In this document: positions 14,032-32,433 of the stretch, piece after piece
How the letters are laid out: every line of letters starts with the position of its first letter
How positions within the stretch are numbered: position 1 is the first letter of the stretch
Assembly (NCBI GenBank): GCA_008080765.1
Contig: SHMU01000023.1
Coordinates: 1-32,455, forward strand
Direction of reading: 5' to 3'
Length of the DNA stretch: 32,455 bases
DNA from: Promethearchaeota archaeon
Lineage (GTDB): Archaea > Asgardarchaeota > Lokiarchaeia > Sigyniarchaeales > SOKP01
The notes under the pieces: model-generated
What the model was told of the DNA's origin: nothing
The model's database searches: none
Seen by the model: the letters and a program-made list of their open reading frames with translations, nothing else
Translations under genes and position numbers: made by a program

Positions 14032-15117
14032 ATGAAACAAAAAATTGGTATCCTTATTGATTATGACTTCACAAATAAACATGTCCCTCCTTATCCTCAT
14101 CCAGTTTTTTTTTCTTATGAAAATCCCAAACGAATGCAAACGATCATACAATATTTGGAAGGGATGAAGCTTTTTGAGAACGAAAAGATACATAAATTAA
14201 TTCCACGAGTCGTCACTAAATCGATCTTACAATTAGCACATTCTCAGTATTATATCGAGGCAGTTGAGAGACTTTCCAAATTTGGAAGTGGAATGCTCAG
14301 TGAAGAAACCTACATAACTCATGATACCTTTTTATTGGCAAAAAAAGCGGTAGGAGGAGTTATTGCTTGTCTTGAAAGCGTGATTAATCACAAATCAAAT
14401 CAAGCTTTTGCCTTAGTTCGCCCTCCAGGTCATCATGCGTTGCGGGAACAATCCTCAGGGTTATGTATTTTTAACAATATCGCGAATGCTATACACTATT
14501 TACGCAAGCGGAAAAATTACAATAAAAAAATTGTCATTATTGATATTGATGATCACTATGGTGATGGAATTGCTCGCTTTTTTTATGAAGATCCCAACGT
14601 ACTTTATTTCTCAGTTCATGAGTTTGATTTTGTTGAAGGAGATATGGGCTTTATTACCGAATTAGGAGCAAAAAAAGGAAAGGGCACGAATATCAATTTT
14701 CCCATCCCCATGAATACGACGGATGCCCATTTTATGGAATTTACCGAGATCCTTACTCCCATTCTTGCTCAATTTCATCCCGATTTGATAATTGTTGCAG
14801 CAGGATTCGATATGTACTTTGCTGATCCGATCGGTAATTGTCTGCTTACAAGTAAATCATATTATGAATTTGCAAAATATATTTTGGCTCGTGCAAGACA
14901 AGTATGTGACGGTAAGGTTGCATTTGTACTAGAAGGAGGGTATTCCCTCATAGGCTTACCGATATGTGTTAGCGCCATTATCAGAGCATTATTAGGAGAA
15001 CCGTTTATCCCCCAACCGTTTGAACAAGTTGAATTCTCAGCTCCTCTTGAAAAGACTGATTTCCTTACAATAAAGGATTCACTGAAAGAATTACTCCAAT
15101 CGTTTTGGAATATCTAA
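14032..15117 (+). CDS. histone deacetylase superfamily protein (HDAC/AcuC/AphA-like)
   Basis: LVRPPGHHA, VIIDIDDHYGDG, VAAGFDMYFADPIGN, FVLEGGYS. Confidence 0.95.
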   Translation: MKQKIGILIDYDFTNKHVPPYPHPVFFSYENPKRMQTIIQYLEGMKLFENEKIHKLIPRVVTKSILQLAHSQYYIEAVERLSKFGSGMLSEETYITHDTFLLAKKAVGGVIACLESVINHKSNQAFALVRPPGHHALREQSSGLCIFNNIANAIHYLRKRKNYNKKIVIIDIDDHYGDGIARFFYEDPNVLYFSVHEFDFVEGDMGFITELGAKKGKGTNINFPIPMNTTDAHFMEFTEILTPILAQFHPDLIIVAAGFDMYFADPIGNCLLTSKSYYEFAKYILARARQVCDGKVAFVLEGGYSLIGLPICVSAIIRALLGEPFIPQPFEQVEFSAPLEKTDFLTIKDSLKELLQSFWNI

Positions 15118-23517: not shown

Positions 23518-24414
23518 ATGAAATTTTTTGATTATGGAGAAGTAATCACCCGCGACACGGAATTTGTAGTCTTTGGTATCCCCTGGGACGAGTTTACTTC
23601 AATAGAGATTGCAAGTTCGGCTCCTGCTCCAAATAAATTGCGGGAAGTATCCCAGCATTTGGCCCTTGGAACAGAATTGGGAATGGAGATTCCGAATTTC
23701 AAGGTGGTTGATATCGGAAATGTAACAATTATACCCGAAAACGCTTCCAAAAATTTAGAGGCAATACAACACTTTGTCGATGCAATCTATGCCGAGAAAG
23801 AGGATATAATCCTAATAGTGATGGGGGGAGATCATTTTTGCTCTTATCCCGTGATTAAAAGTGTTGGGGCTAGAAAAGCCGCCAAGAATGATTTTGGTGT
23901 GCTGGTATTTGATGCACATTTGGATTTTTATGAAGAATATGATAATACTATCTACTCTCATGCTGCGGTAAGCCATCGAATTTACGATTTGGACTTCATA
24001 GGATCCCATAATTTGTTAATTGCGGGAACGAGGGATGTAGATATTCCTGAAATGAAATTAGCACAAAAAGAAAATCTTGCGTATCTCAATGCTCATGAAG
24101 CCTTTTTAAATTTGAGAGAGTATATAAATAACATTATTTCCTTTTTTAAAACCTCTAAAATCAACCAGCTTTATATATCTATCGATATTGATGCCTTAGA
24201 CCCTTCCACCGCTCCAGGAACAGGCTACGCAATACCGGGGGGCTTTTCATATAGAGAATTATGGACAATTCTTAAAAACATTTCAGAAGAATTTCAAATT
24301 ACAGGATTCGATGTGGTTGAGGTATCTCCTAATCTTGATTTGCCAAACCACATTACGGTCAATTTAGCAGCAAAATTAATTACGGAACTTATCTCCTTTA
24401 TCTCACCCAAATAA
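23518..24414 (+). CDS. speB: agmatinase/arginase family ureohydrolase
   Basis: VMGGDHFCSYP, VFDAHLDFYEEYDNTIYSHAAVSHRI, SIDIDALDPSTAPGTGYAIPGGFSYREL. Confidence 0.92.
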   Translation: MKFFDYGEVITRDTEFVVFGIPWDEFTSIEIASSAPAPNKLREVSQHLALGTELGMEIPNFKVVDIGNVTIIPENASKNLEAIQHFVDAIYAEKEDIILIVMGGDHFCSYPVIKSVGARKAAKNDFGVLVFDAHLDFYEEYDNTIYSHAAVSHRIYDLDFIGSHNLLIAGTRDVDIPEMKLAQKENLAYLNAHEAFLNLREYINNIISFFKTSKINQLYISIDIDALDPSTAPGTGYAIPGGFSYRELWTILKNISEEFQITGFDVVEVSPNLDLPNHITVNLAAKLITELISFISPK

Positions 24415-24422
24415 TAGAAAAT

Positions 24423-24526
24423 GATTAGCAAGGAACAAGAAGAACGGAGTAATTAGCAAGGAACAAGAAGAACGGAGTAATTAGCAAGGAACAAGAAGAA
24501 CGGAGTAATTAGCAAGGAACAAGAAG
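24423..24526. repeat. 28-bp tandem repeat AATTAGCAAGGAACAAGAAGAACGGAGT, ~3.7 copies
   Basis: Three near-perfect full units and a 20-bp partial unit, directly adjacent, no spacers. Confidence 0.95.
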
Positions 24527-24563
24527 TAAATGACCAATAAAAAATAAAAAAAATTTGATTATT

Positions 24564-25505
24564 ATGGTAGAGGATAACCTTAAAGAAAAATTAAAAAAAG
24601 TAAATCAAATTAATATTACGCAACAGACCTCTATAAGATCTCTTATCTCAAGTTTAAAAAATACGGGATTTAATGCAAAACGGCTAGCTAACGCATGTGA
24701 AATTTATGAAAGAATGCTACATGATCCTGAATGCATCAAATTTTTTGGACTTGCGGGTGCTATGGTTCCTGTAGGAATGCAACGCATCATTCATGATTTC
24801 TTGGACGAAGGATATATTGATATCTTAGTGACCACGGGAGCAAATCTTACACATGATATTGCAGAAGCCTTAGGATATCATCACCTCCAAGGAAATGTAG
24901 ATGTTGAGCAATTGGATGATGCAGGTCTCCACAAAGACCAAATGAATAGAATCTATGATGTATTCTTGCCAAATAAAGTCTATGAAGGAATTGAAGATTT
25001 TGTTTCTCAATTAGATCTTCCTTCAAATGAGATGCCCATCCATGAATTTTTAAAATTATTAGGAGACCAATTACCTAGTAATCAAAATTCTATACTCAAA
25101 ATAGCTGCAGAAAAAAATATTCCCATTTTTTGTCCTGCTTTTACTGACTCGGGCTTAGCACTCCAATTAGGATTTCATCATCGCAAATTGAACTTAAATC
25201 ACTTTACAGACATGCTCAAATTGATTGATCTCGCTTGGGATGCTAAGACTTCGGGTGTATGTATCGTGGGAGGGGGAGTACCTAAAAATTTTATTTTTCA
25301 GTCATTACAATTTTGTCCCACTTCCGCTAAATATGCCATTCAAATCACTATGGATCGACCGGAGCCCGGAGGGTTGAGTGGTGCTACCCTTAGCGAAGCG
25401 GTCTCTTGGGGAAAAGTACATGAATACGCAGAACACTCAATGGTGATTGCCGATGCCACTATTGTTCTTCCGTTATTATTGTGGTACTTAAAGACTTCCA
25501 AATAA
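24564..25505 (+). CDS. dhs: deoxyhypusine synthase family protein
   Basis: LAGAMVPVGMQRIIHDFL, VTTGANLTHDIAEALG, FCPAFTDSGLALQLG, GGGVPKNFIFQ, conserved EAVSWGKV with the catalytic-type Lys; ATG at 24564 preferred over TTG at 24555. Confidence 0.94.
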   Translation: MVEDNLKEKLKKVNQINITQQTSIRSLISSLKNTGFNAKRLANACEIYERMLHDPECIKFFGLAGAMVPVGMQRIIHDFLDEGYIDILVTTGANLTHDIAEALGYHHLQGNVDVEQLDDAGLHKDQMNRIYDVFLPNKVYEGIEDFVSQLDLPSNEMPIHEFLKLLGDQLPSNQNSILKIAAEKNIPIFCPAFTDSGLALQLGFHHRKLNLNHFTDMLKLIDLAWDAKTSGVCIVGGGVPKNFIFQSLQFCPTSAKYAIQITMDRPEPGGLSGATLSEAVSWGKVHEYAEHSMVIADATIVLPLLLWYLKTSK

Positions 25506-29422: not shown

Positions 29423-29968
29423 ATGAACGAGAAAAGCGAGAGAAAGGGATATGTCTTCAAGATTACTGTAATTGGCGATCCGGCTGTGGGTAAAACCTCA
29501 CTTATCAAAAAATATACTCAAGGGTCATTTCAAAAGGATTACATCAAAACCCTTGGCGCTCAATTTAGTAAATATGATGAAGAAATAGACGGTGAGAACT
29601 GTAAGCTGTTTTTTTGGGATATAGCAGGCCAAGATGAGTGGAGCTTCATGAGAGGCACATTCTACAAAGGGAGCAAAGCGGCAATTATAGTTTACTCGCA
29701 TACAGATGAAGAGAGCTTTGAGCACATACCTAACTGGCATGAAGACATTAAAAAATTCTGCGGAGATATTCCCATTGTATTATTTGGAAACAAGCTTGAT
29801 TTAATTGATGCTGCGGATGTAAATGAAAAAAAGCCAAAAAAATTGGCCAAAAAACGGAACTTTTTAGCCTACATTAACACATCTGCAAAAACTGGAACAG
29901 GAGTATATGAAGGGTTCCAGAAAATCATCCGAAAATTACATTCCGAACATAAAGATAAAGAATGGTAA
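29423..29968 (+). CDS. Ras/Rab-like small GTPase
   Basis: G1 GDPAVGKTS, G3 WDIAGQDEW, G4 GNKLDL, G5 NTSAKTG. Confidence 0.95.
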   Translation: MNEKSERKGYVFKITVIGDPAVGKTSLIKKYTQGSFQKDYIKTLGAQFSKYDEEIDGENCKLFFWDIAGQDEWSFMRGTFYKGSKAAIIVYSHTDEESFEHIPNWHEDIKKFCGDIPIVLFGNKLDLIDAADVNEKKPKKLAKKRNFLAYINTSAKTGTGVYEGFQKIIRKLHSEHKDKEW

Positions 29969-29976
29969 AGATATGA

Positions 29977-30279
29977 ATGAATGCAAGCGAGACCACCCCC
30001 GATTATCCCAAAATCCTTTTCTTCTCTTCAAAACACTGTACACCATGCAAACCTGTAGAAGAGCGTTTAGATAGAATAAACCTTTCTATGTTTGGGAAGA
30101 AATTAATAATAGAAAAGATAAATATTGATATAAAGACCAATCGAGACCTCATCATGAAATACAAGATCACGAGTGTTCCCACGCTGATCATCGGTAGTAG
30201 CAAATTAATGGTCAATATAGATGATTCGGATATAATCGATGCTATCTTGCAAGCATATGTGGATTCAGTTAAGATTTAG
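29977..30279 (+). CDS. thioredoxin-fold protein
   Basis: ILFFSSKHCTPCKPVEERL (CxxC), cis-Pro type KITSVPTLIIG. Confidence 0.88.
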   Translation: MNASETTPDYPKILFFSSKHCTPCKPVEERLDRINLSMFGKKLIIEKINIDIKTNRDLIMKYKITSVPTLIIGSSKLMVNIDDSDIIDAILQAYVDSVKI

Positions 30280-30384
30280 GTTCGAAATTGATACTAACTC
30301 AAAGAGAAAACATATAGTATAAAAAGGAATAAAGCATAAATATAGCATAGAAATAAGAAAAGAAAGAGAAGAGAGAAGAGAAGA

Positions 30385-30864
30385 ATGAATCGGCAATTAC
30401 TCTCCGACATTTTATCGGAAATGAAGAAAAACCTGAAGGAAAGTAAGGGCATCGGTGATTTAAAAGCAGGTGCTCTTTTTGCGTTGGGACAACAATTAGA
30501 TGCGATTTTTTATTATTTAGGGCACGAACTCGGTAATATCATTAATGTGAAACCTACTGAGAATGAGAATGAAATTACAGAACAGTTGATGGGTATTATC
30601 TCAGAGTATCATCTCGGAGAGGTAGAAATTGTGCAAAGTTCTGATGAGATCATCGAATTACGTTTAAGAAGGCATTCTTCAATTAAAGATCTCATTAATA
30701 AAGGGATTCAATCAGAATCTAATTTTTGTTCCTTTGAGGCGGGCATTTTGGCGGGTATTGTGGAAAAGATGAGCGATTTTCATTGTTTTGCGCAGGAAGT
30801 AAGCTGTAGCTTGCAATCGGGCAACGATTTTTGTGAATTTATGATTGTATTTCAAAAAGAATAA
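30385..30864 (+). CDS. V4R-domain protein (Bet3/TRAPP-superfamily-like)
   Basis: C-terminal SNFCSFEAGILAGIVEKMSDFHCFAQEVSCSLQSGNDFCEFMIVF has the V4R signature with spaced cysteines; N-terminal LKAGALFALGQQLDAIFYYLGHELG. Confidence 0.75.
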   Translation: MNRQLLSDILSEMKKNLKESKGIGDLKAGALFALGQQLDAIFYYLGHELGNIINVKPTENENEITEQLMGIISEYHLGEVEIVQSSDEIIELRLRRHSSIKDLINKGIQSESNFCSFEAGILAGIVEKMSDFHCFAQEVSCSLQSGNDFCEFMIVFQKE

Positions 30865-30939
30865 TTTTATATATTTCTAAAATGTTACCTTAATATCTTA
30901 AATAACCTTGGATGTAAAAACAAAAATAAGTGGTTTGTT

Positions 30940-31452
30940 TTGTATAAAGTTAAAATAGTTTTGCTTGGCGAAGCAGGAGTTGGCAAGACTTCACTAGTTT
31001 ATCGTTTTGTTCAAGATACATTTCGCGAATCCTATAAAAGCACATTAGGCGTGAATCTATTAAAAAAGGATTTAGATATTGAGGGATATGGTGCTACTTC
31101 CGCTCAAATTTGGGACCTGGGTGGTCAGGAAAGCTTCAAAAATCTACGACAGTTATACTTAGAGGGTGCTAATGGAGCATTAGTAATCTACGATGTGACA
31201 AAAAGAAAGACTTTTGATAAATTGGACGAGTGGATTTCAAGTTTTCGTGAATCACGAGGGCAAGAACCCCTTCTTTTAATTGGAAATAAGATTGATCTGA
31301 AGCAGCGAATTCAAGTGTCCGAAAAGGAGGGTAAAAAATACGCAAAAGAGCACGGTGTGGACTTTCTTCTTACTTCCGCCAAGACCGGAAATAATGTGGA
31401 GGTTGCGTTTAAAGATTTAATTAAAAAGATCTTGGATACGCTTACGCAGTGA
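30940..31452 (+). CDS. Ras/Rab-like small GTPase
   Basis: G1 GEAGVGKTS, G2 STLG, G3 WDLGGQE, G4 GNKIDL, G5 TSAKTG; TTG start. Confidence 0.95.
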   Translation: MYKVKIVLLGEAGVGKTSLVYRFVQDTFRESYKSTLGVNLLKKDLDIEGYGATSAQIWDLGGQESFKNLRQLYLEGANGALVIYDVTKRKTFDKLDEWISSFRESRGQEPLLLIGNKIDLKQRIQVSEKEGKKYAKEHGVDFLLTSAKTGNNVEVAFKDLIKKILDTLTQ

Positions 31453-31694: not shown

Positions 31695-32386
31695 TTAACA
31701 TTTTTTTTCTATCCATACAATTTCTCCATTCCGATTTACATAGCCCTTTTTTTTATTTAATATAAACTCAAGCAATTCTCCATTCCAAAAGTCGTAGATC
31801 CAATCAAATTTCGGTTTAATTATAAATTCTCCCTGGGTATTAATTAATCCAAATCTTCCCCCACGTATTCCTGAATATCCTACACTTCCCCCAATATTTA
31901 CCCATGTGGTTCCATTATGATGATATCCTACCCAGTCATACTGGGGCTTTGCTAATACAATACCATTGGCATCAATTAATCCCCATTTATTACCTTTTAC
32001 CCAAATTCTTGCATGGTTACCTATAAAGGGTTCAATTGCAACAAATGAGATTGCAGGTTTAATCAGTATTTTTATGTCTTTATTAAAAATCTTCCATGTA
32101 CTCTCATATTTCATCCAGCATGCTTTTGTGAGTTTTTTATTTGTGAGTATATTGGCTGTACAACAATTTCACCATGAGCAGTAATGAAACCATATTTAGA
32201 GTTGATAACTATTATTCCATATACTCCATCAAAAGATTCTACATGGTCGATGGGTTTCTCTAATTTCTTAATTATATTACCGCTTTTATTAATGAAAACC
32301 CAATTTTTTTCCGCAATTTTAACAAGGGCTTTATTGTTATGGAAGTTAAATGGATTTTTATACAGATATTCTAATAATTTCACCAT
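31695..32386 (-). pseudogene. WG-repeat protein, apparently split by a frameshift (ORFs 32111..32386 and 31695..32114)
   Basis: Both ORFs carry WG-type repeats (NWVFINKSGNIIKK, KYGFITAHGEIVVQPIY; KWGLIDANGIVLAKPQYDWV, RFGLINTQGEFIIKPKFDWI, KGYVNRNGEIVWI); joining the frames rebuilds a continuous repeat. Confidence 0.6.
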
Positions 32387-32391
32387 AGGAT

Positions 32392-32433
32392 CGGCACGGA
32401 AGCCCCGTCCTTTAGGGCGGGGAGGAAGTGCCG
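32392..32433 (+). mobile_element. IS200/IS605-type right-end / reRNA-like hairpin, no tnpB in window
   Basis: CGGCAC-GGAAG-CCCCGTCC-TTTA-GGGCGGGG-AGGAA-GTGCCG: two-tier stem, resembles the common GGAAGCCCCGCCCTTTAGGGCGGGGAGG element end. Confidence 0.65.

Follow-up and report, generated by a model that had tools for sequence, protein, structure and literature searches.

A V4R/Bet3 superfamily has been proposed (PMC2253512), and its described members offer points of comparison for the locus reported here, a trio of adjacent genes encoding a Rab-like small GTPase (GTPase1), a thioredoxin-fold protein (Trx) and a V4R protein in a Lokiarchaeal genome bin (73% complete, 3.9 Mb). The stretch analysed, hereafter the window, is the entire 32,455-base contig G000:C23 of this bin. 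In the phenol-sensing proteins MopR, PoxR and DmpR, V4R is the sensor domain of AAA+ sigma-54 activators; the zinc ligands of DmpR are Cys151, Cys177, Cys185 and Glu172, with a cysteine spacing of 26 and 8 (PMC7264223). The spacing is also 26 and 8 in MaMsvR (Cys206/Cys232/Cys240), the M. acetivorans form of the methanogen-specific V4R regulator MsvR, which has a fourth cysteine at position 225; the C206A variant binds DNA whatever the redox state, and the fourth cysteine is not important (PMC3729527). Oxidised MsvR is re-reduced by the thioredoxin system of M. acetivorans (PMC7278568, citing Sheehan 2015). Thor TRAPPC3 binds zinc via cysteines (PMC10933270, PMC2253512), and both TRAPPC3 and PoxR form dimers (PMC10933270).

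The V4R protein of the trio shares with MsvR the V4R domain, a cysteine spacing of 26 and approximately 8, and a fourth cysteine at +19. It has no DNA-binding domain, however, and its co-encoded partner is a Rab-like GTPase. For MsvR, redox switching by cysteines and reduction by thioredoxin are known from experiments (PMC3729527, PMC7278568). With MopR/PoxR/DmpR the trio V4R shares the fold and the spacing of the three zinc cysteines but, unlike these sensor domains, it is free-standing beside a GTPase. The V4R/Bet3 fold is common to the trio V4R and TRAPPC3/Bet3; the former differs in having neither a PF04051 match nor a longin partner, in keeping its cysteine site and in the presence of Trx beside it, and its action on a Rab-like protein is a proposal. 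Finally, MglA/MglB and Rag/roadblock pairs combine a small GTPase with a regulatory partner, as we propose for the trio, but the regulator there is of the roadblock/longin type and not of the V4R fold.

Orthologues of the V4R protein were found at 40 loci in three families of Lokiarchaeales (f1, f2 and f3; f and g numbers label families and genera of our genome set, G numbers genomes and L numbers loci). The complete, co-directional trio was present at 36 of them. Three of the remaining loci end at contig ends; at the fourth, L059 (G007:C148), a stop codon lies inside the V4R frame and the Trx gene is located on a different contig, the V4R being either a broken gene or an assembly error. The median gaps are 21 bases between GTPase1 and Trx and 53 bases between Trx and V4R (8 and 105 bases, respectively, in the window). 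In f1, much of the window neighbourhood besides the trio also keeps its order, so this family on its own proves little. The relatives from f2 and f3 are at about 45-50% protein identity; the trio is still joined there, while the flanking genes of the window are gone and, of the genes outside the trio, only GTPase2 homologues remain, elsewhere, in three loci. The gene order in f3 is GTPase1-V4R-Trx, with all three genes still adjacent. As a control, the homologues of two window genes that stand close to the trio were located in G042: deoxyhypusine synthase (24555-25505 in the window) lies approximately 0.46 Mb and the CinA homologue approximately 1.5 Mb from the trio. In the window, an agmatinase/arginase-family gene stands beside the deoxyhypusine synthase gene (23518-25505), and these two genes are still mutually adjacent in two f2 genomes. 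Short functional groups thus persist, and the trio is among them. In f4-f7, orthologues of Trx, V4R and GTPase1 were not found; the best GTPase scored only 154-178 bits, which is the level of paralogues.

The earlier note had described a cassette of four co-directional genes, the fourth being a second Ras-like GTPase (GTPase2), and had named synteny as a check. All four open reading frames (ORFs), with the domains named, were recovered on the plus strand by the ORF list and Pfam (Table 1), and conservation of order holds for GTPase1-Trx-V4R. It does not extend to GTPase2, which is separated from V4R by 75 bases in the window. In f1, this gene lies downstream on the same strand at 22 loci and on the opposite strand at 8, and it never follows V4R in f2 or f3. 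Its orientation and its absence after V4R in the distant families exclude a four-gene cassette: the conserved unit consists of three genes, and GTPase2 is a neighbour outside this core. At seven f2 loci, the slot after V4R is occupied by a gene for a stand-alone Lrp/AsnC ligand-binding (RAM) domain. A gene for a ubiquitin-like protein (PF00240, 84 aa, terminal GGN) was observed right after the trio and the RAM-domain gene at L067:7150-7401.

All G motifs of GTPase1 are intact (GDPAVGKTS, T43, WDIAGQ, NKLD, TSAK; PF00071, 160 bits), and their residues are invariant in 31 orthologues. The protein ends with HKDKEW; prenylation cysteines are absent and none of the orthologues has a terminal cysteine, a feature also described in other Asgard Rab-like proteins. 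The GTPase1 profile separates the orthologue in G000 (311 bits) from the next GTPase of this genome (162 bits). In a tree of 64 sequences, GTPase1 forms a clade (support 98/96) that is distinct from other Lokiarchaeal GTPases and includes a few solo paralogues; GTPase2 belongs to a separate clade (100/99).

Trx exceeds the cut-off of the Pfam Thioredoxin profile (30.8 versus 23.5 bits) and has the active-site cysteines C21/C24 as well as a thioredoxin-type cis-proline, P68. Residues C21, P23, C24 and P68 are invariant in 33 orthologues. The score against the canonical thioredoxin equivalog TIGR01068 is below its cut-off (31.5 versus 96.8 bits); judged by its sequence, Trx is a divergent thioredoxin-like protein. 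Searches with Trx and V4R profiles covered 228 Asgard genomes. At 32 analysed loci, a single protein of about 480-590 aa has the architecture thioredoxin-V4R-V4R (families f10, f15, f16, f17, f19, f20, f27 and f29), and additional fusions of this kind, for example in f18 (L172), were encountered in a survey of 102 V4R ORFs from 41 genomes, one per genus. Both the thioredoxin and the V4R domains of these fusions exceed the Pfam cut-offs. In 27 aligned fusions, the CxxC motif, the cis-proline and the C..E..C..C pattern of each V4R domain are invariant. The AlphaFold2 model of a fusion has a predicted local distance difference test score (pLDDT) of 85 and a predicted template modelling score of 0.83, with TRAPPC3 and MopR/DmpR as matches of the V4R domains. 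By analogy with the dimers of TRAPPC3 and PoxR, the two V4R domains of a fusion protein would presumably dimerise with each other. Since thioredoxin and V4R domains are fused elsewhere in Asgards, Trx and V4R belong together. Among the other matches to the Trx profile, the thioredoxin domain within a PAS histidine kinase (L084:3240-5246, f20) also scores well.

The window V4R scores 25.9 bits with PF02830, below the cut-off of 31, while its orthologue at L065 is above it (34.8 bits). The AlphaFold2 model of the window protein has a pLDDT of 90.4. Foldseek matched this model with similar scores to MJ1460 (E 2e-6), YslB, MopR/PoxR, BET3 and Thor TRAPPC3. Template modelling scores were 0.64 and 0.65 for BET3 (2pwn and 2j3t_A), 0.57-0.61 for Thor TRAPPC3 (7yh3) and up to approximately 0.62 for MopR/PoxR. 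A sequence search against solved structures returned MJ1460 only and no Bet3; Bet3 was reached by fold comparison. PF04051, the TRAPP/Bet3 profile, was absent from the Pfam matches of the V4R protein at E<=1, and the window genes scanned with Pfam included no longin. The proposed relationship of the V4R protein to Bet3 is therefore borne out at the level of the superfamily: the model places it within V4R/Bet3, with nothing specific to TRAPPC3. The best NCBIfam match is MsvR (1.4e-10), at 41.2 bits versus a family cut-off of 220. The protein is not a member of that family; its 159 aa comprise V4R alone, whereas MsvR consists of a DNA-binding domain plus V4R. Several Asgard families have proteins that join V4R to a KaiC-like ATPase domain (L092, L124, L126, L164).

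Four cysteines, C115, C134, C141 and C150, are located in the last 45 residues of the V4R protein. C115, C141 and C150 are conserved in all 36 sequences compared and C134 in 35 of them; E138 is invariant. The distances C115-C141 and C141-C150 are 26 and 9 residues (26 and 8 in the fusions). The spacing of the three cysteines is like that in DmpR, the zinc glutamate of which is offset by two residues relative to E138, and C134 stands at +19 from C115, exactly as the fourth cysteine does in MaMsvR. The best argument for redox or metal control, and for an action of Trx on V4R, is the spacing shared with MsvR and DmpR, together with the MsvR match. The earlier note had raised such control as a possibility, and the cysteine pattern and the Trx-V4R fusions agree with it; transferred from the homologues, the evidence suggests that the site is under redox or metal control and is a target of Trx. 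An extra CxxC in a loop before the main cysteine site was observed in V4R proteins of f2 and genus g6 (L060-L063, L065-L070); the window copy lacks it.

In the V4R survey, a same-strand Ras GTPase gene was located within 400 bases of V4R for 7 of the 102 ORFs. Four of these are pairs from f5, f6 and f7 (L118-L121; gaps of +31, +14, +1 and -3 bp), the GTPases of which group in a clade of their own (100/97). In f17, a Trx-V4R-V4R gene is followed at 170 to 700 bases by a GTPase gene of yet another clade (100/100). The GTPases paired with V4R in f5-f7 and f17 were considered as GTPase1 orthologues and excluded, as they fall into separate clades. V4R adjacency was therefore seen with three separate GTPase clades, in line with the functional link between V4R and GTPases that had been suggested for the window. 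At L136:3031-5051 (G052:C166), a gene for a 255-aa longin-V4R protein lies 195 bases downstream of a gene for a 352-aa GTPase. Both domains are at or barely above the Pfam cut-offs; by these profile matches, the locus has a putative TRAPP-like domain combination beside a GTPase. No V4R-GTPase fusions were present among the examined loci. Within Lokiarchaeia, a GTPase stands beside V4R in 7 of 30 cases versus 12 of 248 background genes (binomial 5e-4, ignoring relatedness). On its own, the comparison of adjacency with an empirical background is insufficient, so the argument is based on conservation and fusion.

Together, these data point to GTPase1, Trx and V4R as one regulatory module, a thioredoxin-reset redox or ligand sensor governing a Rab-like GTPase; in our judgement, this interpretation has about an even chance of being correct. 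V4R would be a dimeric sensor of thiol or metal state and perhaps of a hydrophobic ligand. Its conserved cysteine site, which in the reduced state probably holds zinc, would act as a thiol switch that closes a hydrophobic ligand pocket, and the dedicated Trx would reset this switch by reduction. We infer that the state of V4R would in turn govern the nucleotide cycle or the recruitment of GTPase1, the putative output. Several observations weigh against such a module. Most of the Trx-V4R-V4R fusions (f10, f15, f20, f27) have no adjoining GTPase. A V4R tree did not decide between fission and fusion, and the trio Trx and V4R are at most putative orthologues of the fused domains. Conserved order is not specific to the trio, the agmatinase-deoxyhypusine synthase pair being kept adjacent in two f2 genomes as well, and conserved adjacency can come from co-expression without contact. 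Some paralogues resembling GTPase1 occur as solitary genes (L132, L140-L143), the V4R-GTPase pairs of f5-f7 are without Trx, and the enrichment of GTPases beside V4R was calculated irrespective of how closely the genomes are related.

The V4R dimer might itself be an exchange factor, or a scaffold, for GTPase1, with Trx as a modifier. Consistent with this are the fold shared with BET3 and Thor TRAPPC3, the three GTPase clades adjoined by V4R genes and the longin-V4R gene located 195 bp from a GTPase gene at L136. Bet3 also contributes to the surface by which TRAPP binds Rab. In the yeast complex, a Bet3 C-terminus would collide with switch I of Ypt1 in its nucleotide-bound state (PMC10152722). 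The catalytic site of TRAPP, however, is formed mostly by the longins Trs23 and Bet5, and a subcomplex of these two with one Bet3 has no exchange activity unless Trs31 is present (PMC10152722); the trio includes no longin. In mouse TRAPPC3 the zinc site is replaced by a hydrogen bond (PMC10933270), but the cysteines of the trio V4R are invariant. Since a PF04051 match is absent and MopR/PoxR fit as well as BET3, the module cannot be called specifically TRAPP-like, as the earlier note had proposed, and we regard a proto-TRAPP function as unlikely. A bolder variant, in which the V4R dimer is a longin-free exchange factor acting directly on the nucleotide pocket of its partner Rab-like GTPase to open it, is gated by its thiol/zinc state via its own Trx and gave rise to Bet3, is to be seen as a long shot. 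If true, the ancestor of Bet3 already served Asgard Rab-like GTPases, and redox control was lost later together with the zinc site.

It is similarly improbable, in our view, that Trx and V4R have a metabolic or stress task of their own, with V4R responding to a hydrophobic metabolite or to redox state through another output, Trx maintaining V4R, and GTPase1 merely co-expressed. Most fusions, located among unrelated housekeeping genes without a GTPase neighbour, fit such a task, and the ligand-binding domain encoded after the f2 trio fits small-molecule sensing. On the other hand, the nearest partner of the Trx gene within the trio is GTPase1, linkage of V4R to GTPases recurs with two further clades, and the orthologues of all three genes are jointly absent from f4-f7. 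Plain inheritance of gene order by descent, with no functional link, agrees with the order kept by many f1 window genes outside the trio but is disfavoured as very unlikely, because in f2 and f3 the flanks are gone while the trio stays, once in altered order, and because Trx-V4R fusions exist.

Asgard genomes encode dozens of Rab-like GTPases. In MK-D1, according to a structural study, these genes generally share no operon with roadblock, longin or TRAPPC3 genes, so that the GTPases are hard to match to their regulators (PMC10933270). The trio is a conserved exception that names a GTPase, a candidate regulator and a candidate reductase. As V4R combines the Bet3 fold with cysteines that match a known redox switch, two open questions become testable, namely which factor switches the Rab-like GTPases of Asgard archaea and whether the ancestor of Bet3 already worked with GTPases. 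Lokiarchaeal archaea are relatives of the ancestors of our cells, and the trio V4R is related both to Bet3 and to archaeal redox sensors. No published account of the three-gene unit was found in the PMC literature, the scope of the search being exclusive of subscription papers and preprints.

Table 1. Genes of the window locus (contig positions) and RAM-domain genes located after the trio in f2.
Feature	Coordinates	Strand	Description	Evidence
GTPase1	29423..29968	+	Rab/Ras-like small GTPase, 181 aa	Ras PF00071 5e-47
Trx	29977..30279	+	Thioredoxin-fold protein, 100 aa, CTPC	PF00085 3e-7
V4R protein	30385..30864	+	159 aa	PF02830 1e-5, NCBIfam MsvR 1.4e-10, AlphaFold2, Foldseek
GTPase2	30940..31452	+	Second Ras-like GTPase, 170 aa, TTG start	Ras 2e-50
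RAM-domain gene	L065:7290-7547
RAM-domain gene	L067:7501-7782
RAM-domain gene	L069:8299-8544

Among the other genes of the window, a histone-deacetylase-family protein is encoded at 14032-15117 (PF00850, 256 bits). Two overlapping minus-strand ORFs are located at 31695-32386; the first encodes a WG-repeat protein, and visual inspection shows similar repeats in the second. The two, close to the end of the contig, may be a single gene split by a frameshift. Also at the contig end is a GC-rich inverted repeat (32395-32430; gccccgtcctttagggcggggagg), which we take to be of a type found at the ends of IS200/IS605-like elements.
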